27,070 bases of DNA, taken from a virus. A program made the translations under genes and the position numbers. The stretch spans positions 1-27,070 of the IMG/VR virus record IMGVR_UViG_3300042292_000611; one strand, written 5' to 3'. Positions 1,235 to 24,594 of this stretch are shown piece after piece. How positions within the stretch are numbered: position 1 is the first letter of the stretch; every line of letters starts with the position of its first letter. Below the pieces are notes generated by a model. It searched no databases. It saw only the letters and a list, made by a program, of their open reading frames with translations, and was not told the DNA's origin.

Positions 1235-1767
1235 TTTACATCCTCACTATTCAATTTGAAATTGGGAATATTATGACCCGGTTTAGTATAAAATCTAGCT
1301 GGATCTGTCCTAATATCCATCCATAATTTACCTAAAATATTATCACCTTGCAATAAACCGTCTTTTTCGACAGCACCCCAATATGTATCTTTATGAGATT
1401 TTTCAACGATTGCACGTTGACCGGATTCATCTAACAACATCTTAATTGTACGATAATTATAATATAGTTTCAACTCTAAACAGTATCTCATAATATCGTT
1501 TTTAACTGTGTCCCAATCTTCACGGGTATGTGTTTTGCGGTATTTTTTACTAGTCATCTTACTAGCCATTCCAGAATGACCTTTTAAAATTTCCATTTGA
1601 ATTTCAGGGTAATCAGGGAATCTAGCTGCTTGGTATAAAGCTTCGGTATTTTTAATTTGAATACCGTTAACTTTAACGGGGCAGTCATTAGACATATTAG
1701 ATAACTCACCCCATTGTTCTTTAACTTTACTAAACCAACATACTGCATTTTTGGTATACGCTTCCAT
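1231..1767 (-). CDS. NADAR-family (YbiA-like) protein
   Basis: A 178-residue protein with the layout of the NADAR/YbiA (DUF1768) family. It has an N-terminal aromatic and ELSNMS segment (residues 18-27), a TEALYQAARF motif (41-50) carrying the conserved Glu42, and a C-terminal motif, D127-x2-WG, with GDNILGKLWMDIR at 141-153. Family members bind or cleave N-glycosidic bonds in ADP-ribose-type or riboflavin-intermediate substrates, and some remove ADP-ribose from guanine in DNA. A CGGAGAT ribosome binding site precedes the ATG, and a perfect late promoter box lies at 1812-1819. In a phage it may reverse host ADP-ribosylation defence or act in NAD metabolism; that role is inference. Family assignment is fairly secure. 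Confidence 0.8.
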   Translation of the reverse strand: MEAYTKNAVCWFSKVKEQWGELSNMSNDCPVKVNGIQIKNTEALYQAARFPDYPEIQMEILKGHSGMASKMTSKKYRKTHTREDWDTVKNDIMRYCLELKLYYNYRTIKMLLDESGQRAIVEKSHKDTYWGAVEKDGLLQGDNILGKLWMDIRTDPARFYTKPGHNIPNFKLNSEDVK

Positions 1768-1811
1768 TTTTACTATCTCCGTAAGAAATTAATGTCATGC
1801 GTATTATAAAA

Positions 1812-1819
1812 TATTTATA
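1812..1819 (-). promoter_or_regulatory. T4-type late promoter box TATAAATA
   Basis: A perfect TATAAATA on the minus strand, about 45 bases upstream of the NADAR gene start. It matches the T4 late consensus recognised by the gp55 sigma factor. It probably drives the NADAR, Ser-rich and 167-aa genes. Confidence 0.7.
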
Positions 1820-1827
1820 TGACTAAA

Positions 1828-2436
1828 TCAAGCATTTTTTAGATCTTTTGTAGATATAAGTACAGTAATATCACCATGACTAAAATCAGCACCCCAAACA
1901 GCACCAGAGCTATAATAAGACGTAAACTCTTTATACGACATTAACGGTACTAATAGATGACTCGCATTATTAAAGATATAGACATTATACCCAATTTCAA
2001 ACGCTGTTCTTATATTAGCTAGCCAAAAACGTTCACCATCGGATGTCTGCATTGTATCTGTTTGCATTGTTTTATATTTTTTCAATAAAAATCTAAAAAA
2101 CACAATGCGTGGTAAATCTTTTACACGTGATGATCTACTTGACCATAGCATTATTTGTGAGCAAGTGCGTCCTGCATTCGGTTCTGTTTTAACTTCATAA
2201 TTACAATAATACACGACTTGTTTAGTTGGATGGTATAAACCTACAATAAGATCTTCGCCACCTATGTTTATATTATAAAGATCGACACCATTAATATTAT
2301 CAATAAGTTTTTTTCTATCAAATTTTGCAAATAAATCGTATCTCATGCGATTAGAGTCAAGGTCATCAAAAGCATAATCTGTGAAGTCAGATATTCGCAT
2401 TGGGGGAGATTCTAAAATAATATCGGTTAATTTCAT
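1828..2436 (-). CDS. Hypothetical protein, 202 aa
   Basis: I chose the ATG at 2436 (MKLTDIILESPP...), with a weak GGA site upstream, over a TTG at 2448. The protein looks soluble and globular, with many aromatic residues, and has no signal peptide or membrane helix. The short N-terminal helix followed by ILESP is reminiscent of leaders on some T4-type capsid or core proteins cleaved at LxE sites, but that is only a resemblance. A CATAAATA late box lies upstream at 2467-2474. It is divergent from the topoisomerase gene. No family recognised. Confidence 0.6.
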   Translation of the reverse strand: MKLTDIILESPPMRISDFTDYAFDDLDSNRMRYDLFAKFDRKKLIDNINGVDLYNINIGGEDLIVGLYHPTKQVVYYCNYEVKTEPNAGRTCSQIMLWSSRSSRVKDLPRIVFFRFLLKKYKTMQTDTMQTSDGERFWLANIRTAFEIGYNVYIFNNASHLLVPLMSYKEFTSYYSSGAVWGADFSHGDITVLISTKDLKNA

Positions 2437-2466
2437 TTGTATATCCAATTATGTAACTTTATGTAA

Positions 2467-2474
2467 TATTTATG
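2467..2474 (-). promoter_or_regulatory. T4-type late promoter box CATAAATA
   Basis: CATAAATA on the minus strand, about 30 bases upstream of the ATG at 2436, one base from the TATAAATA consensus. Confidence 0.5.
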
Positions 2475-2501
2475 TTTGCTATTTTTAAAATGTTTTTGTG
2501 G

Positions 2502-2530
2502 TGGATTTAATTTTGTAATTATATTATAAT
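2502..2530 (+). promoter_or_regulatory. Possible early sigma70 promoter for topoisomerase genes
   Basis: A perfect TATAAT lies at 2525-2530 with TGGATT (a weak -35) 17 bases upstream at 2502-2507. A second candidate, TTGAAT (2550-2555) with TACACT (2573-2578) at 17-base spacing, is also possible. The 184-base gap 2449-2632 otherwise holds only the divergent late box and an AGG ribosome binding site (2624-2626) for the gene at 2633. Confidence 0.4.
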
Positions 2531-2632
2531 AGTGTTGAAATGGAATTAGTTGAATCATAAAAAATTGTAATATACACTCCCGACTCGATATATACGGACA
2601 AACTTAGTATTGAACATTGCAACAGGTAAAGT

Positions 2633-4405
2633 ATGAGTATTGAAAAAAAATACAAAAAGCTAGATGAGATAGAGCACGTACTAATACGACCAGGTAGGTA
2701 TATTGGTAGTACAGTTCCTCATACATCAGACGAGTTTTTAATAGTTGATAATAAATTTGAAAAGCGTGAGAATACCTATGTTCCCGGCGTTTTAAAGCTA
2801 TTTGATGAGATTATTACTAACTCAGTTGATCACAGTAAAACAGAAGCTGGTTCCCATGTTACTACAATTAAGGTAGATATTTGTAGAGAAACAAAAGTAA
2901 TATCAGTGTACGATGATGGTGGTATACCGGTAGTAAAACATAAAGAGCATGATCAGTATATTCCTGAAATGATTTTTGAGTTAAGATCTGGTTCAAACTT
3001 TAATGATGAAGAGCAAAGTGAATCAAGATTAGGAGGAACACATGGAGAGGGAGCAAGCTTAACTAACATTTTCTCAACATCATTTATTGTACATACAGCA
3101 GATGGCAAAAATTCGTTTTACCAAGAACACACAGACAATTCAAGAACAAAAACAAAACCTATTGTTAAAAAATCAAAAGATAAATTTACAAAGATCACGT
3201 ATACATTAGATTTTGATAAATTAAAACTAACAAGTGAAATATCTGACGGTGATTACGCTAAAATCATTAAGCGTGTTTACGATGTTGCTGGTTGTAACCC
3301 TAAATTAAAAGTTTTTTTAAACGATGAACAAATTCAAATTAACTCGTTTAAAGATTATATCAAAATGTATACAGATGAATATGTATTTGATAGTACTGAT
3401 GATTGGAGAGTTGGTGTTAGTAAAAGTGACGGTTCATTTAGTCATGTTTCTTTTGTTAACTCAGTTGAGACCAAAATTGGTGGACAACACGTTGAATATA
3501 TAGCGTACCAAATTATCGCTAAGTTACGTGAATACATTGCAAAGAAGCATCGTATACAAGTAAAACCTTCAGAAATAAAAAACCATTTAAATTTGTTTAT
3601 TGACGCTGATATCAACAAACCAAAGTTTGATAGTCAAACAAAAGAAAACATGATTACAGAGATTAAGAATTTCGGGACGACATTTGAAATAACAGATAAT
3701 TTCATTAAAAGTGTAGTTAAATCTAGTATAGTACAATCAATTTTAGATTGGGCACAAGCAAAAGAAAACGCACTATTACAAGCTGAGTTACGTAAATTGA
3801 ATAAGACAACAGATAGGTTGGATCCAATTCGTGTTGATAAGTTTGAAGATGCATCTGAAAAGAAGAATCGTAGTTTATGTACTGTATTACTTACAGAGGG
3901 GGATTCAGCAAGTAAAGCAATTTTAAATAGTCGTAACCCTAAATTACATGCAGTGTATCCATTAAAAGGAAAACCATTAAACGTGCTAACAATCGACCCT
4001 AAAAGATTGATGGATAACGAAGTGTTTAAGAATGTGTTAACTATTACTGGATTAAAATTAGGCGAAAAAGTTGAATCGTTATCACAATTACGGTTTGGTA
4101 AATTAGTAATATTAACAGATGCTGATTGTGTTACAGAAGAACATTATACACTAACGGAAAGCGGTGAAAAGCTAGTTTCAGATGTAAACGTTGGAGATAA
4201 AGTATTAACACATACAGGTCAATACAAAACCGTTGAATACGTTTGTGAACAAACAAAAACACAAATCATACGTATCCGATCAGGAAACACAGTGATTGAA
4301 TGTTCACCAGATCATAAACAACCGGTGGTGCGTAGCGGTGCTGTGCAGATTGTATTAGCTAAAGATATATTACCTACGGATTTGATATTATCTAAGAAAA
4401 AATAA
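2633..4405 (+). CDS. DNA topoisomerase II large subunit, N-terminal piece fused to split-intein N half
   Basis: A 590-residue protein. Residues 1-498 are the N-terminal part of the T4-type type II topoisomerase large subunit (GyrB-like): a GHKL ATPase with DEIITNSVDHS (about 62-72) and the nucleotide-binding DDGGIPV and GGTHGEGASLTN motifs (about 137-150), a transducer domain, and the start of TOPRIM with LLTEGDSAS (about 422-430) and LVILTDAD up to 498. At Cys499 (base 4127) the topoisomerase sequence stops and 92 residues of intein follow. In T4 this subunit is also divided, into gp39 and gp60. The protein lacks the last ~129 residues of the enzyme, encoded at 5813-6199, and should need trans-splicing to be active. 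Confidence 0.93.
   Translation: MSIEKKYKKLDEIEHVLIRPGRYIGSTVPHTSDEFLIVDNKFEKRENTYVPGVLKLFDEIITNSVDHSKTEAGSHVTTIKVDICRETKVISVYDDGGIPVVKHKEHDQYIPEMIFELRSGSNFNDEEQSESRLGGTHGEGASLTNIFSTSFIVHTADGKNSFYQEHTDNSRTKTKPIVKKSKDKFTKITYTLDFDKLKLTSEISDGDYAKIIKRVYDVAGCNPKLKVFLNDEQIQINSFKDYIKMYTDEYVFDSTDDWRVGVSKSDGSFSHVSFVNSVETKIGGQHVEYIAYQIIAKLREYIAKKHRIQVKPSEIKNHLNLFIDADINKPKFDSQTKENMITEIKNFGTTFEITDNFIKSVVKSSIVQSILDWAQAKENALLQAELRKLNKTTDRLDPIRVDKFEDASEKKNRSLCTVLLTEGDSASKAILNSRNPKLHAVYPLKGKPLNVLTIDPKRLMDNEVFKNVLTITGLKLGEKVESLSQLRFGKLVILTDADCVTEEHYTLTESGEKLVSDVNVGDKVLTHTGQYKTVEYVCEQTKTQIIRIRSGNTVIECSPDHKQPVVRSGAVQIVLAKDILPTDLILSKKK
4127..4402 (+). other. Split intein, N-terminal half (IntN, 92 aa)
   Basis: The intein begins at Cys1 directly after the TOPRIM residues DAD. 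Block A reads CVTEEHYTLTESGEKLVSDV with NVGDKVLT following; block B reads GNTVIECSPDHKQPV with the conserved His at intein position 63. It ends KDILPTDLILSKKK and a stop, exactly where full inteins carry their endonuclease domain. The reading frame is the same as that of the C-terminal half at 5651, so a single ancestral intein frame was opened by the endonuclease insertion. Confidence 0.93.
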
Positions 4406-4409
4406 TGTA

Positions 4410-5654
4410 ATGAAAATCCAGTGTAAAGAATGCGGCGAGCTAACGACTAAAATCCAAGATCATATTACCGCTAACCACGGTAATATGATTGATTATTGTA
4501 TTAAACATTTTACATATATAAGTGCTAATAACCACGATGAGTACTTAAAATTATACCAATTAGGTGAGTGTACAATATTAGCTAACCACAAAAACTGCAC
4601 ATACCGTTTAGTGCGTACTAAACCTAAAAAAACATGGACATGTAAGCATTGCAATGAGCAAATATCTGTAGCCACACGCACCGGTATAGGTACACACCTC
4701 AACAGTGATAAATGTGGGTTTAAACAATCAATCGTAGAATACGCGTACCAGTATTATACGGAAATTGAACCTGAGAAATTTAATCCAGACGAACGTTGTG
4801 CGTTTTGTGAAAGACCTGCGATTAATATTAGAGTTGATGTGGATGAGGTTAACGAAACATTTAGACGGTACCATATTAATTACTTTTGTTTTAACGATGA
4901 CTGTAAACGTGAAACATTTAAACGAATATGGCCTAATAGAACCTTTACGTACGAGCTATGGAATAAAATTGGAAGTACTAAAGAATATATTAGTGCTGTT
5001 AACCGAATATCAATCGATGACGCGAAACATAAGAAAGTACCCAGAGATTTTACAGAATGGTATAAGACAGGTGGTAAGACATGTTCATTAGCTGATTTTA
5101 TTTTAAGACATGGTGAAGAACTTGGTACTGAAAAGTATAAGGAGAGAGGTAGAAAAATTGGAAAATCTAATTCACTCGAATATTATAAAGAGCGGTATGG
5201 TTCTGAAATTGGCTCTTCAAGATGGTTCAAAAATATAGAAAATGCTAAACGAAAAACCCATGGAAACACCACATCGGTTCAGTGCACACAGTTGTTGGAT
5301 AGAATATCAAAATATTATAATATAGTGCGAGAATCAGGAATAATTTGTGAAAAACGTATTACTGTAGATTCGTTAATAATAGATCATAATATAATCGTTG
5401 AATATTTTGGTGATTATTGGCATTGTAATCCTGAGGTGTGGAGCGCAGACACGTACAATAAAACATTAAAATGCACAGCATCATTTAAATGGGCTAAAGA
5501 CACTACACGGTTAGATACGATATTATATACATCCCCTATTGAATATCGTGTGTTGGTTATATGGGAAAAAACTGCAAACCGGTTGACAGATATAGAGATC
5601 TGCAATTATATTGAAAAATTAAAAACAGGTGAAGAGAGGTTAATAATTATATGA
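4410..5654 (+). CDS. Vsr-like homing endonuclease with zinc fingers
   Basis: A 414-residue protein in a frame different from its neighbours. Three zinc-finger-like clusters come first: C5-C8-H18-H23, C78-C81-H96-C102 and C129-C132-C159-C164. Residues ~225-285 contain the lysine/tyrosine-rich helical segments (LRHGEELGTEKYKER, YYKERYGSEIGSSRW) common in phage homing endonucleases. The C-terminal domain (about 305-400) resembles Vsr mismatch endonuclease: D319, IDHNIIVEYFGDYWHCNP with E330 and H337, D363, then VLVIWEK. This agrees with the EDxHD/Vsr-like homing endonucleases of fractured genes. The start lies 4 bases after the preceding stop with no clear ribosome binding site, suggesting coupling; the stop overlaps the next ATG (ATGA). 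It probably cleaves uninterrupted topoisomerase alleles. Confidence 0.85.
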   Translation: MKIQCKECGELTTKIQDHITANHGNMIDYCIKHFTYISANNHDEYLKLYQLGECTILANHKNCTYRLVRTKPKKTWTCKHCNEQISVATRTGIGTHLNSDKCGFKQSIVEYAYQYYTEIEPEKFNPDERCAFCERPAINIRVDVDEVNETFRRYHINYFCFNDDCKRETFKRIWPNRTFTYELWNKIGSTKEYISAVNRISIDDAKHKKVPRDFTEWYKTGGKTCSLADFILRHGEELGTEKYKERGRKIGKSNSLEYYKERYGSEIGSSRWFKNIENAKRKTHGNTTSVQCTQLLDRISKYYNIVRESGIICEKRITVDSLIIDHNIIVEYFGDYWHCNPEVWSADTYNKTLKCTASFKWAKDTTRLDTILYTSPIEYRVLVIWEKTANRLTDIEICNYIEKLKTGEERLIII

Positions 5655-5812
5655 TAAGCGCAAATTATGATTTATCACAGTACGATTTATTAAGTATTGA
5701 TGAAATTAGTGTGATTGACAAAGAAATAACTACGTACGATTTTACGGTACAAGATGACCATACGTTTTATGTGCGTCATAAATCATCGTCGGATTATATA
5801 TTAACACATAAT
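5651..5812 (+). other. Split intein, C-terminal half (IntC, 54 aa)
   Basis: Block F is YDFTVQDDHTFYVRH with the conserved Asp and His. Block G is SDYILTHN, with the penultimate His53 and terminal Asn54, followed by Cys+1. All residues expected for standard Cys1/Asn/Cys+1 splicing chemistry are present. At 54 residues it is longer than many natural IntC pieces; the first ~18 residues precede the usual start of this region. IntN plus IntC total 146 residues, a normal mini-intein size. Confidence 0.92.
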
Positions 5813-6202
5813 TGTGATGGTGTTCATATTACAGGGTTACTAATTAACCTGTTTAATACATTTTGGCCTGAGTTATTTAAATTAGGTTTTGTTTGTAAAT
5901 TTAAAACACCAATTGTAAAAGTAACAGTTGGTAAAGAAGTAATTGACTTTTATACTGAAGAAGATTTTAAAGCATGGTCAAAGAAAACCAATAAAAAATA
6001 CACATCAAAATACTTTAAAGGTTTAGGTACAAGTACTTCAAAAGAATTTAAAGAGTATATGGAGAAATTTGACGAAAGTATAATTCCATACTCTATCGAA
6101 GATACACAAGATAAAGAAGCTGTTAAATTAGCTTTTAGTAAAGAAGAAGGTAAAGTTAGTACAAATAAACGTAAAGATTGGTTATCATTATTGGAGATCT
6201 AA
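5651..6202 (+). CDS. Split-intein C half fused to topoisomerase II large subunit C-terminal piece
   Basis: A 183-residue protein. Residues 1-54 are IntC; Cys55 (base 5813) is the +1 extein residue. Residues 55-183 (CDGVHITGLLINLFNTFWPE...) continue TOPRIM and the rest of the large subunit, matching GyrB DADVDGxHI followed by a helix ending in PEL. It corresponds in position to T4 gp60. Joined to the first piece it would give a 627-residue subunit, a plausible size for T4-type enzymes. An AGAGG site lies 12 bases upstream, and the ATG overlaps the endonuclease stop. On its own the product lacks ATPase and half of TOPRIM and would be inactive. Confidence 0.92.
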   Translation: MISANYDLSQYDLLSIDEISVIDKEITTYDFTVQDDHTFYVRHKSSSDYILTHNCDGVHITGLLINLFNTFWPELFKLGFVCKFKTPIVKVTVGKEVIDFYTEEDFKAWSKKTNKKYTSKYFKGLGTSTSKEFKEYMEKFDESIIPYSIEDTQDKEAVKLAFSKEEGKVSTNKRKDWLSLLEI

Positions 6203-6378
6203 TGAAAAAGTTAATTGTCATATCATTGTTATTGACTGGATGTGTTGCAGTACCGTATGGCCCTACATACTCTCAACCATACACATACGGTGCACCACAC
6301 TATCATTCACATTATGGTAGTAATTTTAATCGTTACCATGGCGGAAATTTTAACCCGTATCGTTCACGAAATAGATAA
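6202..6378 (+). CDS. Small predicted lipoprotein
   Basis: The ATG at 6202 overlaps the topoisomerase stop (TAATG) and follows a GGAG site at 6193-6196, so I prefer it to an upstream start at 6178. The 58-residue product begins MKKLIVISLLLTGC, a short lipoprotein signal with lipobox LLTG|C and Cys14 as the lipidated residue. The mature part is only ~45 residues, rich in Tyr, His, Asn, Gly and Pro, with repeated HYG/NFN-type segments. It should be anchored in a membrane of a Gram-negative host. Rz1-type spanins and phage superinfection-exclusion lipoproteins share this size, but no specific similarity is visible. Its place between two topoisomerase subunit genes is odd. Confidence 0.7.
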   Translation: MKKLIVISLLLTGCVAVPYGPTYSQPYTYGAPHYHSHYGSNFNRYHGGNFNPYRSRNR

Positions 6379-6390
6379 TAAAAGGATTTT

Positions 6391-7695
6391 ATGAAACTTA
6401 AAACATTTTTTGATGAAGAATTTAGATTATATTCAATTGCTGATTGCGTAAGATCTATCCCATCAGTGATAGATGGTTTTAAACCCTCGCAGCGTAAATG
6501 TATATACGGGATGATATCACGTGGTGAAAATGCCGGTGAAGGTAAAGTTGCGCAATTAAGTGGTCATATTTCAGCTGTATCGCAATATCACCATGGTGAA
6601 AATAGTTTAAACGAAACATTAGTTGGGTTAGCACAAGATTATACAGGCAGTAACAACCTCAATTATCTTAAACCTAATGGTCAGTTTGGTAGTAGGTTAT
6701 CGAGTGAAGCGTCGGCACCTCGTTATATTTTTACAGAGCTATCTGAATCATTTAGAAAAATATTCAAACGCGAAGATGATATTATTTTGAATTATCTTGA
6801 AGATGATGGTGAACGTATTGAACCAGATTATTACTTACCTATCTTACCTAATATATTAATTAATGGTGCAAGAGGTATGGGTACAGGGTACGCTACTCAT
6901 TTCTTAAAATATAACCCAATGGATTTAAGAGATGTAATTGTTTCTGTTATTAAAGGTACCGAACCAAAAGCTATATTACCATGGTATAGAGGTTTTAAAG
7001 GTACGGTAACAGCTGTTGATAATCAAATCACTAATACAGGTTGTTATGAAATTGTTAACACTACTACTATACGTATAACAGAACTACCAATTGGTGTATA
7101 TCTTGATGATTATAAAAAGCACTTATTCAAACTTCAAGATGCTGGCGTAATTAAAGATTTTGATAACAACTCAACAGAAAAAACATTTGATTTTCTTGTC
7201 AATGTACCTAAGACTACTACACAATTAACACACGAAGTGATCATTAATAAGTTCAAATTGTCAAGCAGAGATACACAAAACTTAACAGCATGGACCGAAA
7301 CTGGACATATTAAAGTATTTGAAGATGTTCAAGAAATTATTGAACATTTTATTGAATTTAGATTAGGTAAATACGAAGAACGTCGTAATAAACTAATTGA
7401 GATATTAACTACTAATCTCGAGTTAATGACTGAAAAACGTAGATTTATTGAATTTTATATTAACAACTCAAAAGATATTGCTACTAAAAATAAAAAAGAG
7501 CTTGAACAAATATTAGTAGATAATAACTTTGTAAATATCACTAAATTATTAGATATTAGAATTTACAATCTAACCAAAGATGATATCGCTAAGCTGGAAT
7601 CACAAATTGAAAAAACGACAAAAGATGTCGAAACTTTAAAGAAAACAACATGTGTTAAAATGTATCTTAAAGAACTTGAGTCATTAGATGTATAA
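6391..7695 (+). CDS. 52: DNA topoisomerase II medium subunit (gp52-like)
   Basis: A 434-residue GyrA/ParC-type breakage-reunion subunit, close to T4 gp52 in size. SIPSVIDGFKPSQRKCIYGM (residues 22-41) is the typical DGLKPxxRR start. HHGE (67-70) and NLNYLKPNGQFGSR (89-102) follow, and the active-site Tyr112 lies in SAPRYIFTEL. Later segments include ILPNILINGARGMGTGYAT and a long C-terminal coiled coil (about 320-434) for dimerisation. It lacks the GyrA beta-pinwheel, as expected for T4-type enzymes. AAGGA precedes the ATG. It would assemble with the trans-spliced large subunit to form the phage topoisomerase used in replication. Confidence 0.95.
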   Translation: MKLKTFFDEEFRLYSIADCVRSIPSVIDGFKPSQRKCIYGMISRGENAGEGKVAQLSGHISAVSQYHHGENSLNETLVGLAQDYTGSNNLNYLKPNGQFGSRLSSEASAPRYIFTELSESFRKIFKREDDIILNYLEDDGERIEPDYYLPILPNILINGARGMGTGYATHFLKYNPMDLRDVIVSVIKGTEPKAILPWYRGFKGTVTAVDNQITNTGCYEIVNTTTIRITELPIGVYLDDYKKHLFKLQDAGVIKDFDNNSTEKTFDFLVNVPKTTTQLTHEVIINKFKLSSRDTQNLTAWTETGHIKVFEDVQEIIEHFIEFRLGKYEERRNKLIEILTTNLELMTEKRRFIEFYINNSKDIATKNKKELEQILVDNNFVNITKLLDIRIYNLTKDDIAKLESQIEKTTKDVETLKKTTCVKMYLKELESLDV

Positions 7696-8028: not shown

Positions 8029-8036
8029 TATAAATA
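8029..8036 (+). promoter_or_regulatory. T4-type late promoter box TATAAATA
   Basis: A perfect TATAAATA, 31 bases upstream of the gp21 ATG at 8068, in the 146-base gap 7922-8067. A second partial box, TATAAATG, lies at 8046-8053. The gap also has a weak 8-base inverted repeat (7955-7962 with 7982-7989). A GAGG ribosome binding site is at 8059-8062. Confidence 0.7.
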
Positions 8037-8067: not shown

Positions 8068-8703
8068 ATGAAAACGCAAGTATTGATTGAGTCCATGTCA
8101 AATGGAAGTCACAATCTTATTACAGAGTCATCTACAGATGGTAAAGGCTTATATTTGAGTGGTTGTTTCATGCAAGCAGAGACACGTAACCGTAACGGTC
8201 GTATCTATCCCTTGACAGAAATGCAAACAGCTGTTGAGCAACTCAACAAAATGATTAAAGAAGAAGGTAGTGTATGGGGTGAATTAGATCATCCACCTTC
8301 TTTGCAGGTTGCGAGTGATCGTGTTAGTCATGAAATTACTGAACTTCGTATTGAAGGTAATATGGTATTTGGTAAAGCTAAAATCTTACCTACACCAATG
8401 GGTAATATCGCTAAAGTATTAATGACTGAAAGTAAAAAGAAAATTGGTGTAAGTAGTCGCGGTGCTGGTGAAGTAAATGAAAACGGTATAGTAAGCGGGT
8501 TTAACTTAGTAACGATTGATTTAGTTGGTACCCCAAGCTGCTCAAACGCTTACCCAACTTCTATATATGAATCAATTGAACGTGCTAAAAACGGTCAACA
8601 AATCATTACATTAGCAGAATCAGTTATTCACGATGATGCAGCACAAAAATACCTTGTTAAAGAAATCATGAAAATGTTGCGTGACGATATCTTTAAGAAA
8701 TAA
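8068..8703 (+). CDS. 21: Prohead core protein and protease (gp21-like)
   Basis: A 211-residue serine protease of the T4 gp21 (S77) type, which matures the prohead by cleaving core and capsid proteins at LxE-type sites. It has ETRNRNGRIYP (38-48), the catalytic His75 in WGELDHPP, the catalytic Ser in IGVSSRGAG (Ser129 or Ser130), and LVTIDLVGTPSC (147-158), with Asp151 as a possible third residue. Size matches gp21. A late promoter and good ribosome binding site precede it. In T4 gp21 lies between core genes and gp22/gp23; here a core-like gene is convergent downstream and no scaffold or major capsid gene follows in the window. Confidence 0.92.
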   Translation: MKTQVLIESMSNGSHNLITESSTDGKGLYLSGCFMQAETRNRNGRIYPLTEMQTAVEQLNKMIKEEGSVWGELDHPPSLQVASDRVSHEITELRIEGNMVFGKAKILPTPMGNIAKVLMTESKKKIGVSSRGAGEVNENGIVSGFNLVTIDLVGTPSCSNAYPTSIYESIERAKNGQQIITLAESVIHDDAAQKYLVKEIMKMLRDDIFKK

Positions 8704-8753: not shown

Positions 8754-9104
8754 TTATTTTAAATCGTGATCGTCTTCGTCGAAGTCAAAGTCGTATTCTT
8801 CTTCGTCATCTTCTTCAGATTTGGTATCTTCATCTTCTGATTCTTCGTCATCTTCTGATTCTTCGTCATCTTCTGATTCTTCGTCATCTTCTGATTCTTC
8901 GTCATCTTTTTCAAGATCGTCATCATCTTCGTCATCATCTTCTAAATCAGAAGAATCTGTTGGCATTTCGTCGCTTTCTTCAGGGTATTCTGCTTCAAGT
9001 AAGCTACGAATACGATCTACTGCATGAGCATGGAAAGCAGCTTGAGCTGTTTCTGTATCTTCAGCAATGATCGCATCTACTAATTCTTGTATTTTAATTG
9101 TCAT
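8754..9104 (-). CDS. Acidic prohead core protein (gp67-like)
   Basis: The ATG at 9104 has AGGAG 9-10 bases upstream; a GTG at 9125 lies before this site and is rejected. The 116-residue product begins MTIKIQELVDAI, and its first ~40 residues (LVDAIIAEDTETAQAAFHAHAVDRI) resemble the N-terminus of T4 prohead core protein gp67. L35-L36-E37|A38 fits the LxE cleavage motif of gp21-type proteases. The rest is almost wholly Asp/Glu/Ser, with four exact EESEDD repeats. Such proteins fill the prohead core and are degraded during maturation. It is convergent with the protease gene. Identity with gp67 is inferred from pattern and context. Confidence 0.65.
   Translation of the reverse strand: MTIKIQELVDAIIAEDTETAQAAFHAHAVDRIRSLLEAEYPEESDEMPTDSSDLEDDDEDDDDLEKDDEESEDDEESEDDEESEDDEESEDEDTKSEEDDEEEYDFDFDEDDHDLK
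8833..8904. repeat. 18-base tandem repeat, four exact copies
   Basis: The unit TCTTCTGATTCTTCGTCA is repeated four times without change (8833-8850, 8851-8868, 8869-8886, 8887-8904). It lies inside the acidic core gene and encodes four copies of a six-residue Asp/Glu/Ser unit. Exact identity suggests recent expansion by slippage. Confidence 0.9.
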
Positions 9105-9166
9105 TTGTTTAAAACTCCTAAACACACATGTTTGAAATATTGGTACTAAATCTATTATTTATTTAG

Positions 9167-9180
9167 TATTTAGCTAAATA
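9167..9180. promoter_or_regulatory. Palindromic back-to-back late promoter boxes
   Basis: The 14-base palindrome TATTTAGCTAAATA holds GCTAAATA on each strand (9173-9180 plus, 9167-9174 minus), two bases from TATAAATA. It lies between divergent genes starting at 9104 and 9230. Other AATAAATA-type boxes lie nearby on plus (9184-9191) and minus. It is probably a divergent late control region. Confidence 0.45.
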
Positions 9181-9229
9181 AAAAATAAATATTATATAAC
9201 ATTGCTAATCACTTTAAAAGACCGATAAT

Positions 9230-12094
9230 ATGGCACTTTCTGCATCTGAACTTTTACAACTACAACAGGCGTTAACACAACTTGCAAAAGCTTCAAGTAG
9301 CATCGCTTCGTTTGCGACACAATTAGGTAACGTTCAAAGCGATAACATAACTGCCGCGCAAGCAGAGACAAAAAAACGACGAACAGTAATCGATGATTAT
9401 GATTCATTATCAAAAGTATTGCAAGATCAGGCAAAAGACTTTAAAAATGTGCAAAAAACCGTCGACGGGTTTTCTCAAAACTTAGATGATGCTAACCGTC
9501 GACATAAAATGGTGTCTAATGCATTAGATACATTACAATCTTCTATTTCAGCTGCCGGTAATGCAACAGCAGCTCAAACATTAAAACAAACCTTGTTGTC
9601 TCGTACACTCGCAAATGTTGCTGCTGAAAGAGAAACAGAGCGCAGTAGAATAGTAGAACAAAGTAGAAACGTTAGTGCGACAATTTCTAGTCTCGTACAA
9701 TCATCGAACGCTAACGCTGCACAAAGAAATGAGCAAGAAAAGCAGTTTTATGGTAGAAAGTTACCTGAAACGATGCAATCAGCTTTGCGAGGTGTGTCAC
9801 AAGTAGCTGGTTCTCAACTTGGTAGACAATTACCTACATCTATACAATCTGCACTAAGTGGGTTAGCTAAAATAGCTGGACCCCAACTTAGCCGCCAGTT
9901 GATGTCGTACACTAATACTGGAGCTTTAACACGTTTTAACGATGTTCAACAACGTGCGACACAATCATTAATAGCTAATAACCAGAGTATAGGTGATTCA
10001 AGTGCTAGGTTAGCTCAACAATACGGAGATTTAGGTAGAAGTTTAGATACCACAACATCTAATTTTGACCAATTAACGTCACAATTACCCGGAGCAGCTG
10101 GTGGAACTGTTAATTTAAGTTCCGAATCAGTAGGTTCAATAGTTAATGCGCAGCAACCTGTAGACGCATCTGACCAAAACTATAGCAGAGCGATGTCGAG
10201 TGGTATTACCGCAATAGCTAGACATTTTAATAATAACAACTCTAATGTTAGGTCCATGGTAAACACGGGGTTACCTCCAGGTGTACCGCCAAGTCCTGTT
10301 CGACCAAGAACGTTACCACCAGGAATACCACCTGGTAACTATCCCGGTCCACAACCTAGTACACCACCTGGTGGTGCACCACCTGATTCAGTAAAAAACC
10401 TTGAAAAAGCAACAGAGATGTTAAAAGCTGGTGCTGGAGCTGTTGGTACATATTTTACAGCAGAATACGACGCATTAACAAATTTTGTACAAACAAACCG
10501 GTTAGTAGCTCTACAGTTGAACATGACTGAAGAGCAATATCGCCAGTCAAGAGCTGAGACTAAAGAAGTATGGAATATTGCTGCTGATAGTGGTCAAAAA
10601 CAACTTGACGAATTTTTAACATCACGAAGAAATCAGTTAGAAGATGCGTACGGTTCTGAACCTATGCTACGTGATAAAATGGGTGCGGGTTTTTACAAAC
10701 TAAACCAAGTACTAGGCGTAGCTGACACAGAAATCGATGGGATGGTTAAGGGGTTTGAAAAACTTAGCTTAACATCAAGAATGAGTACTACAGGATTGAC
10801 AGAGTTATTCTTCAATCTTACAAATTCAAATGAAAGTCTTGTTTATATGAACGGGTTAGACGAAAAAGGTCGGCAAGTGCGCGTTCAAGAAATTAGAAAA
10901 ACTGTTGATATGGTTTCAAAGCTTGGCTTAGCTGGCGAAGCTGCTGAACAGTTCGCAAAAGCTTTAATTGAAACAGCTCCCAAAGCACCTGATGTATCAG
11001 AGCTTATGAGTACGTATGGTTCTACACAAGTATTAAACCAGTTTATTACCAACTTATCGCAACAATTAGGTATCAAGCCTGCTTTATCTCAAGAGCAAGT
11101 AACTGAGTATGGTGGTTTACGCATGCTTCAATTAGAAGGTAGATCGTTAAATTTTGAACAAACTAAAAAACTAACAGAGTATTCAAACGCAATTGTTAAT
11201 TTTAAAGCTGACGCAAATAAAAAACTAAACGAAATAACTCAGCAACAAAGTGACCCACGTGCAGCAGCGTTTTCAATTTTACAACAAACGCAGATGCTGC
11301 ATAAAATCGACGAGTTTACAGCTACAGCAAAACTAGACCCGTTATTAGAACCACTAAACCAACAAAAACTTGTTCAACAAAAATATAATGAAACAGGTGA
11401 TAAATTAATAACGAGTAATGATGAGTTAGTGAAAGCATTAACACGTAAAGATGAGCAAGCAGATCAACGAGCTGAAGATATAGGAATACGCAAACAGGTA
11501 ACAGGGGTTATCGCTGAAGTGTACCGTGCGTACTTAGCAGCGCAAGGTACGCTAGCTATGACACTAGCTAAATCAACCGGGTTAACAGACCTTGCCGAAA
11601 AAGCGGCTCTTAGACGGTTAGGTGGGGGAGCTGGTGGAACAGCTCTAAATTCGTTCAATGCTACAGGAGGAGGTGGTGGAGGTGCTGGTGGTTCAGGTGG
11701 TGTACCGAGTGCTGCGAGATTAGCTGCAGGTGCTGGAATTGCATATGAAATGCGAGATAACGGGAACGGCACCCCGACTTCACAAACAGACCAACCTTCA
11801 GAATCTGAACGTGCTAATACCCCGTTACCGTCGAGTCAATTATCAGCTGCTTCTACAGCAGAATCGACATTATCGTTGACTGAACAATTTACAAAGTATT
11901 TTAATAGTGTCGATATTCAAAACACAATGATGTCAGGGTTCTTAAAACAATTAGCTGATAATTCATCAGGTGTGGGAAAAGATGTTAAGGAATGGTATCA
12001 ATTATATCAAGATACCCACTCCATAACACCTTTAGATGGTAAAACTAAAAAAGAAAATACGGACCCATTAACACAAGGTAACGTAAAACCCTAA
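9230..12094 (+). CDS. Large coiled-coil virion-type protein (possible tape measure)
   Basis: A 954-residue protein with no recognised family. Residues 1-~300 are Gln/Ala/Ser-rich alpha-helical coiled coil. Residues ~345-385 form a proline-glycine linker with PPGVPP and PPGIPPG motifs. A mainly helical globular part follows (~390-760), then a hydrophobic Ala/Leu segment with a Gly-rich stretch (GGGAGG, GGGGGGAGG, about 795-825) and a Ser/Thr/Gln-rich tail. Helical length, linker and hydrophobic/Gly segment resemble tail tape-measure or internal virion proteins; it is much longer than T4 gp29 (about 590). No clear ribosome binding site precedes the ATG. It ends 3 bases before the convergent gene at 12098. 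Confidence 0.6.
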   Translation: MALSASELLQLQQALTQLAKASSSIASFATQLGNVQSDNITAAQAETKKRRTVIDDYDSLSKVLQDQAKDFKNVQKTVDGFSQNLDDANRRHKMVSNALDTLQSSISAAGNATAAQTLKQTLLSRTLANVAAERETERSRIVEQSRNVSATISSLVQSSNANAAQRNEQEKQFYGRKLPETMQSALRGVSQVAGSQLGRQLPTSIQSALSGLAKIAGPQLSRQLMSYTNTGALTRFNDVQQRATQSLIANNQSIGDSSARLAQQYGDLGRSLDTTTSNFDQLTSQLPGAAGGTVNLSSESVGSIVNAQQPVDASDQNYSRAMSSGITAIARHFNNNNSNVRSMVNTGLPPGVPPSPVRPRTLPPGIPPGNYPGPQPSTPPGGAPPDSVKNLEKATEMLKAGAGAVGTYFTAEYDALTNFVQTNRLVALQLNMTEEQYRQSRAETKEVWNIAADSGQKQLDEFLTSRRNQLEDAYGSEPMLRDKMGAGFYKLNQVLGVADTEIDGMVKGFEKLSLTSRMSTTGLTELFFNLTNSNESLVYMNGLDEKGRQVRVQEIRKTVDMVSKLGLAGEAAEQFAKALIETAPKAPDVSELMSTYGSTQVLNQFITNLSQQLGIKPALSQEQVTEYGGLRMLQLEGRSLNFEQTKKLTEYSNAIVNFKADANKKLNEITQQQSDPRAAAFSILQQTQMLHKIDEFTATAKLDPLLEPLNQQKLVQQKYNETGDKLITSNDELVKALTRKDEQADQRAEDIGIRKQVTGVIAEVYRAYLAAQGTLAMTLAKSTGLTDLAEKAALRRLGGGAGGTALNSFNATGGGGGGAGGSGGVPSAARLAAGAGIAYEMRDNGNGTPTSQTDQPSESERANTPLPSSQLSAASTAESTLSLTEQFTKYFNSVDIQNTMMSGFLKQLADNSSGVGKDVKEWYQLYQDTHSITPLDGKTKKENTDPLTQGNVKP

Positions 12095-23145: not shown

Positions 23146-23661
23146 TTACGCAGCCTGAATATTAGATAATTGAGATAATTCTTCTTTTTTAAGTAGCGCT
23201 ATATTATGTGCTTGGTCTGGTGTATCAAACGAACCAAGATAATATTTAACACCTTCATGCATTATATTAGCACAATATTTTCCTTGATTTTTTACTACCC
23301 ATTTATAGCCTGATGATTGAGTATTCTGAAACCTGTAAACTAAATTATCATACCTAAGGTTCGATGAATTTCCATCCTTAAATTTAAGAACACCATTAGG
23401 GTCATTTCTATTAACTAATTTCCAAATAATTTTTTTAATTGAATAGTACTGTCCTAATAACCTTACATGGCTGCATCGATTGTTAGTCCCTGCTGTCGGT
23501 TGTGACCCAGCTGATTTACCTGCTAATCTTGAATTAATAATCGACATAGCGGTTTTTGTTTTGAAATGAGACATCGGTCTTTCTTTCCACGTAAACTCTC
23601 CTGTTTCAAAATTATAATCAAAACATTCAATCAAATACTCATATTCCGGTAGTGCACTCAT
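23146..23661 (-). CDS. HNH/AP2-type protein, nuclease site probably degenerate
   Basis: A 171-residue protein with AAGGA before the ATG. It follows the layout of phage HNH homing endonucleases that end in an AP2-like DNA-binding domain: GEFTWKERP (21-29), YYSIKKIIWKLVN (72-84, normally HRLIWxxxxG), VLKFKDGNSSNLRYDNL (91-107, normally DHINGNxxDNRxxNL) and SGYKWVVKNQGKYCANI with YYLGSFDTPDQAHNIA (AP2-like, 117-154). The key His residues of both HNH halves appear replaced (Ser74; Phe/Lys at 94-95), so cleavage may be lost while DNA binding remains. It lies 11 bases after gp44, where T4 has the gp62 gene. Confidence 0.72.
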   Translation of the reverse strand: MSALPEYEYLIECFDYNFETGEFTWKERPMSHFKTKTAMSIINSRLAGKSAGSQPTAGTNNRCSHVRLLGQYYSIKKIIWKLVNRNDPNGVLKFKDGNSSNLRYDNLVYRFQNTQSSGYKWVVKNQGKYCANIMHEGVKYYLGSFDTPDQAHNIALLKKEELSQLSNIQAA

Positions 23662-23672
23662 ATTCTAATTCC

Positions 23673-24563
23673 TTAAATCATACTCAATTCTATTACACAC
23701 GCTAACAGGTAAATAAAATCGTTAGCACCCTGTTTACACATCCAATTAGCAATAGTAACAATACCATTTTCGTAATTAGATTCATTTTTAAATTTTTGCG
23801 CTGTTTGTAAGTTCTCATATAATGAAACAAACACCTCCTCTACCTCGATTGTATCTCGGTTAGATTCAATATAAGATCTCAATTCTACCCATTTACCATT
23901 TTCGATATAACTGATAATATCGAATGTCTGTACTTTGCTTACCTTTAACGTTCCTGTCTTACTATTTTGCTCAACAGATTTGATAATTTGTCTCATATCA
24001 GGGTACAATTTATCAACATAATAATCAACATCATCTAAATTAAATTGTACGTTTTCTTTAAGTAGTAACATTGAAACATTATCAGATAATGCTTCTTTTG
24101 AAGGTGATTGGAAACGTATAATTTTATCACACCTTGATTTTAATGCACCAATAATCTTATTTTCGTAATTACAAGCAATAATGAATTTAACACTGTCAGC
24201 ATACTCATTCATTGGTACTCGTAAAGCTGCTTGAGCGTTAGCTGATAGGTAATCCGCTTCATCTAAAAAAATAACTTTATACTCACCCATTGACGATGTT
24301 GATGAGAATGTAGTAATAATATCTCTAATAACATCGACGCCGTTCTCAATCGAAGCGTTGATTATTTTAACATCATATGGATCAATATTAAATTTTTTAA
24401 TTAATATCTCTGCTAATGTTGTTTTACCAGTACCTGGCGTACCACATAAAAATAAATTTGGAACATGTGTTAAATTTGAAAAATACTCCGCATCCTCATC
24501 TGTTTGGAACACAAATTTTGTCAAGGTACACGTTTGATGCTTAATATCCCAAGGTAATTCCAT
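23673..24563 (-). CDS. 44: Sliding clamp loader ATPase (gp44-like)
   Basis: I use the ATG at 24563, with GAG 7 bases upstream; a GTG at 24575 is an alternative that adds 4 residues. The 296-residue product is an AAA+ ATPase of the RFC small-subunit/gp44 type: Walker A GTPGTGKT (41-48), Walker B VIFLDEAD (97-104), sensor 1 Asn in IIACNYEN and the arginine-finger SRC motif (143-145). T4 gp44 is 319 residues. It loads the gp45 clamp for the phage polymerase, normally with gp62, whose gene is not next to it here. A sigma70-type promoter lies just upstream. Confidence 0.93.
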   Translation of the reverse strand: MELPWDIKHQTCTLTKFVFQTDEDAEYFSNLTHVPNLFLCGTPGTGKTTLAEILIKKFNIDPYDVKIINASIENGVDVIRDIITTFSSTSSMGEYKVIFLDEADYLSANAQAALRVPMNEYADSVKFIIACNYENKIIGALKSRCDKIIRFQSPSKEALSDNVSMLLLKENVQFNLDDVDYYVDKLYPDMRQIIKSVEQNSKTGTLKVSKVQTFDIISYIENGKWVELRSYIESNRDTIEVEEVFVSLYENLQTAQKFKNESNYENGIVTIANWMCKQGANDFIYLLACVIELSMI

Positions 24564-24594
24564 ACTGGTACTCACGTTAGATTAATAAAATATT

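Follow-up and report, generated by a model that had tools for sequence, protein, structure and literature searches.

A predicted mobile split intein with a free-standing Vsr-like endonuclease in the TOPRIM motif of a phage type II topoisomerase

We analysed a 27,070-nucleotide stretch of viral DNA (IMG/VR record IMGVR_UViG_3300042292_000611, positions 1 to 27,070; hereafter the window) in which the gene for a T4-type topoisomerase II large subunit is carried on two separate open reading frames (ORFs), each encoding one half of an intein fused to one part of the enzyme. We are confident that a mobile split intein interrupts the TOPRIM motif between DAD and the +1 residue; both trans-splicing and homing are inferred. 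The two protein halves very probably must be spliced after translation.

An earlier note on this DNA had placed three ORFs at 2633-4405, 4410-5654 and 5651-6202, with the gene broken at DAD|C in TOPRIM, and this layout proved exact. All features of the locus lie on the plus strand. ORF1 (2633-4405, 590 amino acids) starts with residues 1-498 of the large subunit (the N-extein, 2633-4126), which end in ...LTDAD and hold the ATPase, the transducer and the first part of TOPRIM, with matches to Pfam DNA_gyraseB and Toprim. This segment matches PHROG 543, topoisomerase II large subunit, at profile positions 23-518 (E 1e-139), and residues 54-179 of ORF3 (5651-6202, 183 amino acids) match the same profile at positions 518-637. 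Because the first match ends at the very position where the second starts, the host protein is complete and its halves join without gap or overlap. The C-extein (5813-6202; ORF3 residues 55-183, 129 amino acids plus the stop), which begins C(+1)DGVHITGLL..., supplies the rest of TOPRIM and TOPRIM_C (Pfam TOPRIM_C, E 1e-24). Together the exteins comprise 627 residues, the product length that the note had predicted, and bring ATPase, transducer, TOPRIM and TOPRIM_C into one predicted protein. The IMG/VR contig L027 is collinear with the window (75-80% nucleotide identity) and encodes the same topoisomerase as a single uninterrupted ORF of 626 residues (...LTDADTDGVHITGLL...) whose empty site reads DAD|TDG. 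The joined exteins align with this protein over 626 residues without a gap and with 90% identity (91% for the N-extein, 88% for the C-extein), and after DAD the window has the codon tgt (Cys) where L027 has aca (Thr).

The N-terminal intein half (IntN, 4127-4402; ORF1 residues 499-590, 92 amino acids) runs from Cys1 to ...LILSKKK and is closed by a TAA stop at 4403-4405, and the C-terminal half (IntC, 5651-5812; ORF3 residues 1-54, 54 amino acids) contains block F (...TYDFTVQDDHTFYV...) and block G (...YILTHN). Both were assigned by alignment with seven other topoisomerase inteins and with gp41-1, and IntC is also matched by the NCBIfam model intein_Cterm (TIGR01443; 22.7 bits against a cut-off of 15.6). 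All the catalytic residues of a class-1 intein are present, and with them every splice-site residue that the note had listed: Cys1 and block B His63 in IntN, block F Asp30 and His37 followed by His53 and Asn54 in IntC, and Cys55 of ORF3 as the +1 residue. A profile built from the eight topoisomerase inteins found gp41-1 first in the PDB, over its full length (E 3e-13), then AceL NrdHF-1 (E 9e-9), and then other inteins and Hint proteins. The window intein resembles gp41-1 (PDB 6qaz, 6riz), its nearest solved relative by profile, in Cys1, an S-x-x-H block B, an LTHN block G and a split near the usual endonuclease site. It differs from gp41-1 in its longer IntC (54 versus 37 amino acids) and IntN (92 versus 88), in an extra N-terminal IntC segment (DLSQYDL), and in having Cys rather than Ser at +1.

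We searched IMG/VR with the endonuclease encoded between the two halves and then with alignments of IntC plus C-extein, and recovered inteins at the identical codon in seven further distinct topoisomerase genes, six of these inteins being split and one contiguous. Among the split alleles, L031, L034 and L035 (the last on the same contig as L001) carry a homologous endonuclease, L036 (= L037) carries a different 390-residue ORF between the halves, and L038 and L039 have only 66 and 63 bases, respectively, between the ORFs and no endonuclease. The contiguous allele, L032 (= L033), is a 141-residue mini-intein within a 766-residue ORF. The inteins at DAD|C have IntN regions of 90-94 and IntC regions of 49-55 amino acids, and C1, T10, G13, D24, V26, H63, D85, the Asp and Phe of block F and L-T-H-N are invariant in all eight; the gp41-1 alignment puts these invariant residues in blocks A, B, F and G. 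The splice residues C1, H63, block F Asp, H53, N54 and C+1 stay constant even though the ORF3 proteins are 34-56% identical to that of the window. Splicing needs a nucleophile at +1, and every intein allele (eight of eight) has Cys at this position, against none of the 52 distinct empty relatives in our tree set. The split intein proposed in the note is therefore supported by protein families, by relatives with and without the insertion and by the gp41-1 profile match, and the nearest relatives and insertion-site alleles that it had suggested seeking are gp41-1 in the PDB and eight intein alleles at one codon. It is fair to call the element a new natural split intein; calling it a new kind would be unjustified.

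The note had also raised the danger of an assembly error. Although the window is one environmental virus record, we regard it as very improbable that the stop at 4403 or the start at 5651 is an assembly or sequencing artefact in a continuous gene, or that the gene is a decaying pseudogene. The same break occurs at homologous positions in the six other distinct split contigs, which excludes assembly error for practical purposes, and a near relative has the uninterrupted allele. Moreover, the endonuclease ORF is intact and has homologues in three of those contigs, and neither the intein halves nor the extein halves contain any interruption of their reading frames.

The gap between the halves is occupied by ORF2 (4410-5654, 414 amino acids), which encodes a predicted free-standing homing endonuclease of the Vsr/EDxHD type. 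ORF2 has a Cys/His zinc-finger-like N-terminal part, helical repeats and a nuclease domain at approximately residues 290-414, and its homologues in L031, L034 and L035, which sit between the corresponding intein halves, share the Cys/His clusters (C78, C81, H96; C130, C133, C160, C165) and the C-terminal nuclease domain. The stop codon of the endonuclease and the start codon of IntC overlap in an ATGA in each of the four Vsr-type alleles, which suggests translational coupling. ORF2 on its own matched no Pfam family above cut-off, and a single-sequence PDB search gave no credible match. We rely on an alignment of 19 nuclease domains from IMG/VR, in which the E, F, G, W and H of an EYFGDYWH motif never vary, nor does a WE pair close to the end, and three Asp are near-invariant, including one before and one after this motif; the Asp before it and its WH align with the Vsr active-site region. 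An AlphaFold2 (AF2) model of the domain from this alignment (predicted local distance difference test score, pLDDT, 94; predicted template modelling score, pTM, 0.87) supersedes a poor full-length model from four sequences (pLDDT 65), for which Foldseek nonetheless ranked Vsr first. With the domain model, Foldseek placed Vsr structures 1vsr and 1cw0 at the top (E 1e-3 and 5e-3; probability 1.00), and VIA-align gave Z 10.9 for Vsr 1cw0 (127 residues aligned, 4.0 Å), 10.0 for I-Bth0305I 3r3p (94 aligned, 3.6 Å) and 9.7 for 3hrl. In agreement with this, a nuclease profile run against 177,635 PDB sequences had 3hrl, 3r3p and Vsr on top, weakly (E 0.002-0.1). The model thus lies near Vsr and I-Bth0305I, as expected from the Vsr-like assignment in the note. 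However, some mitochondrial ribosome proteins score as high against it as the Vsr-type structures do, so the fold alone is no proof of nuclease activity. ORF2 shares the nuclease fold and the conserved acidic, His and Trp residues with I-Bth0305I and Vsr, but it is only about 16% identical to them, has a long extra N-terminal region with the Cys/His clusters, and, instead of lying in an intron or a repair operon, stands free with an intein half on each side.

EDxHD/Vsr endonucleases in phages are described in PMC12350094, which credits Dassa 2009, and related Vsr-type enzymes are found there in phage introns. The interruption might on that precedent be removed at the RNA level, as a group I or group II intron with its endonuclease, yet this is the explanation in which we place the least credence: no Rfam family matched positions 2400-6600 even at E up to 1, none matched across the window at gathering scores, and the coding sequence extends across each intein half as far as homologous stops and starts.

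The same endonuclease family also lies beside intein halves in other genes, namely a gp41-like helicase broken at the P-loop (L004, L008, L025), a gp46-like P-loop protein (L019) and, probably, a ribonucleotide reductase (L010). It further breaks the PolB genes of two isolates, Campylobacter phage CP21 and Klebsiella phage KP13-7, and of Lak-C1 (L112, L110 and L111, respectively). These follow the same order of IntN, Vsr-like endonuclease and IntC, with HN|S or HN|T junctions, but their host is a DNA polymerase broken at a YGDTDS-type motif. The CP21 PolB halves are annotated merely as polymerase pieces.

The break divides the TOPRIM metal-binding motif, leaving DAD on the first chain and the following Asp on the second, after IntC. 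With the motif divided in this way, the unspliced topoisomerase should be inactive, judging from the known role of TOPRIM. The T4 large subunit is a precedent for a split enzyme of another type: it is naturally split into gp39 and gp60 and functions without splicing (PMC2988022), its endonuclease insertion lies in the same TOPRIM region of the same host gene, and its break sits only slightly upstream of DAD|C. The window gene could likewise be in pieces that assemble non-covalently, with the intein halves as inert remnants, but we consider this unlikely. The T4 gene has no intein and its insertion encodes an HNH-type endonuclease (mobA), and gp60 retains the entire TDADHDG on one chain, whereas in the window 92 IntN residues directly follow the catalytic DAD, and IntC precedes the motif's next Asp on the second chain. 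Furthermore, the splice residues are invariant across deep divergence, Cys+1 strictly tracks the presence of the intein, and an intact TOPRIM in the contiguous allele L032 requires cis-splicing.

Besides the T4 precedent, several points weigh against a functional trans-splicing element in the window. Most of the data are metagenomic contigs. Ratios of nonsynonymous to synonymous substitution (dN/dS) between the window and L031 are 0.31 for IntN, 0.20 for IntC and 0.13 for the C-extein, which speaks in favour of the intein, but dS is high, which makes these figures rough and weakens the estimates of selection. The isoelectric point of IntC is 4.3 in the window and acidic in all seven split alleles (4.1-5.8), and that of IntN ranges from mildly acidic to basic (5.6-9.6); an acidic IntC with a variably charged IntN leaves fragment docking unproven. 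Cyanobacterial DnaE split inteins show the opposite charge pattern. A segment of the DLSQY(D/E) type, found at the start of IntC in the window (5651-5695), L034 and L035, recognisable in split alleles and absent from the contiguous L032 intein, is a possible docking element.

We placed 60 distinct exteins in a maximum-likelihood tree and found that the presence of the intein needs at least 7 changes, each required by branches with good support, compared to a mean of 7.7 for shuffled labels. Four sister pairs of an intein-bearing and an empty allele are fully supported (window/L027, L034/L075, L036/L070 and L039/L107). The scatter is about as wide as that of shuffled labels, as would be expected if a mobile element had been gained and lost repeatedly. 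A broader idea, to which we give slightly less than even weight, is that phage topoisomerase II has a hotspot at DAD|C, with related inteins representing all stages of a life cycle: an empty site, a contiguous mini-intein, and split forms with a Vsr-type endonuclease, with an unrelated ORF or without an endonuclease. The split form would then outlive the endonuclease and would now be the sole route to the enzyme, whose activity would depend strictly on trans-splicing because the metal-binding motif is divided. A scan of 84,980 prokaryote genomes for the junction, with a narrow pattern, gave no relative, and no intein was found at detectable similarity in the topoisomerase large-subunit genes of INPHARED isolate phages. 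A tblastn candidate from Lak-C1 was rejected as a topoisomerase allele, as its intein is contiguous and its ORF is no topoisomerase.

In L034 (5986-7893), L035 (6010-7902), L036 (5998-7890) and L038 (5995-7893) the second ORF also encodes the small subunit, and a single ORF, measured from stop to stop, spans about 1,090-1,114 codons in each of the empty relatives L067, L070, L074 and L075. Splicing in these four split alleles would thus yield a single-chain topoisomerase II, and the ORFs suggest that some phage type II topoisomerases are one chain of roughly 1,090-1,114 amino acids. The 390-residue ORF that replaces the endonuclease in L036 (4825-5994) has repeated units and belongs to PHROG 20046, of unknown function; nothing in Pfam matched it above cut-off, and it looks GIY-YIG-like by eye only. 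In L032, a UvsW-like helicase gene (1672-3420) is itself interrupted at the P-loop by a contiguous intein (SPTS|C...HHN|SGKS).

In the window the small-subunit gene (GyrA/ParC-like, 434 amino acids, 6391-7695, plus strand; Pfam DNA_topoisoIV, E 2e-96; PHROG 551) lies 3' of the joined large-subunit gene, an arrangement of T4-type topoisomerase II. We propose that IntN and IntC would bring the two chains together, that Cys1 would form a thioester after Asp498, and that Cys+1 of the second chain would attack it; cyclisation of Asn54 would then release the 627-residue large subunit to pair with the 434-residue small subunit. The endonuclease, for its part, would cut alleles that lack the intein, for example the one in L027, at the DAD motif, and repair would copy the intein halves and the endonuclease into the cut allele.

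Fractured genes of this type were reportedly described by Dassa and colleagues in 2009 for eight types of DNA enzymes, together with a Vsr-like endonuclease family. As in those genes, a DNA enzyme is broken here by a split intein, with a free-standing Vsr-like endonuclease between the halves and phage genes around it, and the same holds for L031, L034 and L035; the difference from those genes would lie in the host, a topoisomerase II large subunit, and in the site, DAD|C in TOPRIM. In the literature that we searched, which was covered in part and did not include Dassa 2009, we found no description of a split intein in a phage topoisomerase. A known arrangement thus occurs in a gene and at a site that are apparently undescribed, the novelty of the host gene being unproven. 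With this locus the small set of fractured genes gains a well-documented host gene and insertion site, but more valuable is the range of alleles found at this single site, a natural series for intein splitting and endonuclease loss. With Cys/Cys nucleophiles, an LTHN|CDG junction and kinship to gp41-1, a very fast intein, these inteins are candidates for protein ligation, and the divided TOPRIM motif offers a simple activity test of trans-splicing.

Several other features of the window were recorded. Between the two topoisomerase genes lies a small ORF (6202-6378) with a lipoprotein-like signal (LLTGC), whose ATG shares one base with the large-subunit stop. On the minus strand, an HNH endonuclease gene (23146-23661; PHROG 99), probably a second homing endonuclease of the same phage, lies beside the gene for a clamp-loader-like ATPase (23673-24575). 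Matches to the T4 late promoter core (TATAAATA) occur at 8029 and 18169 on the plus strand and at 1819 on the minus strand, the first of them just upstream of an ORF starting at 8068. Finally, the protein encoded at 8754-9125 on the minus strand is extremely acidic, with Glu/Asp/Ser repeats, and L027 has a counterpart at 9043-9429.

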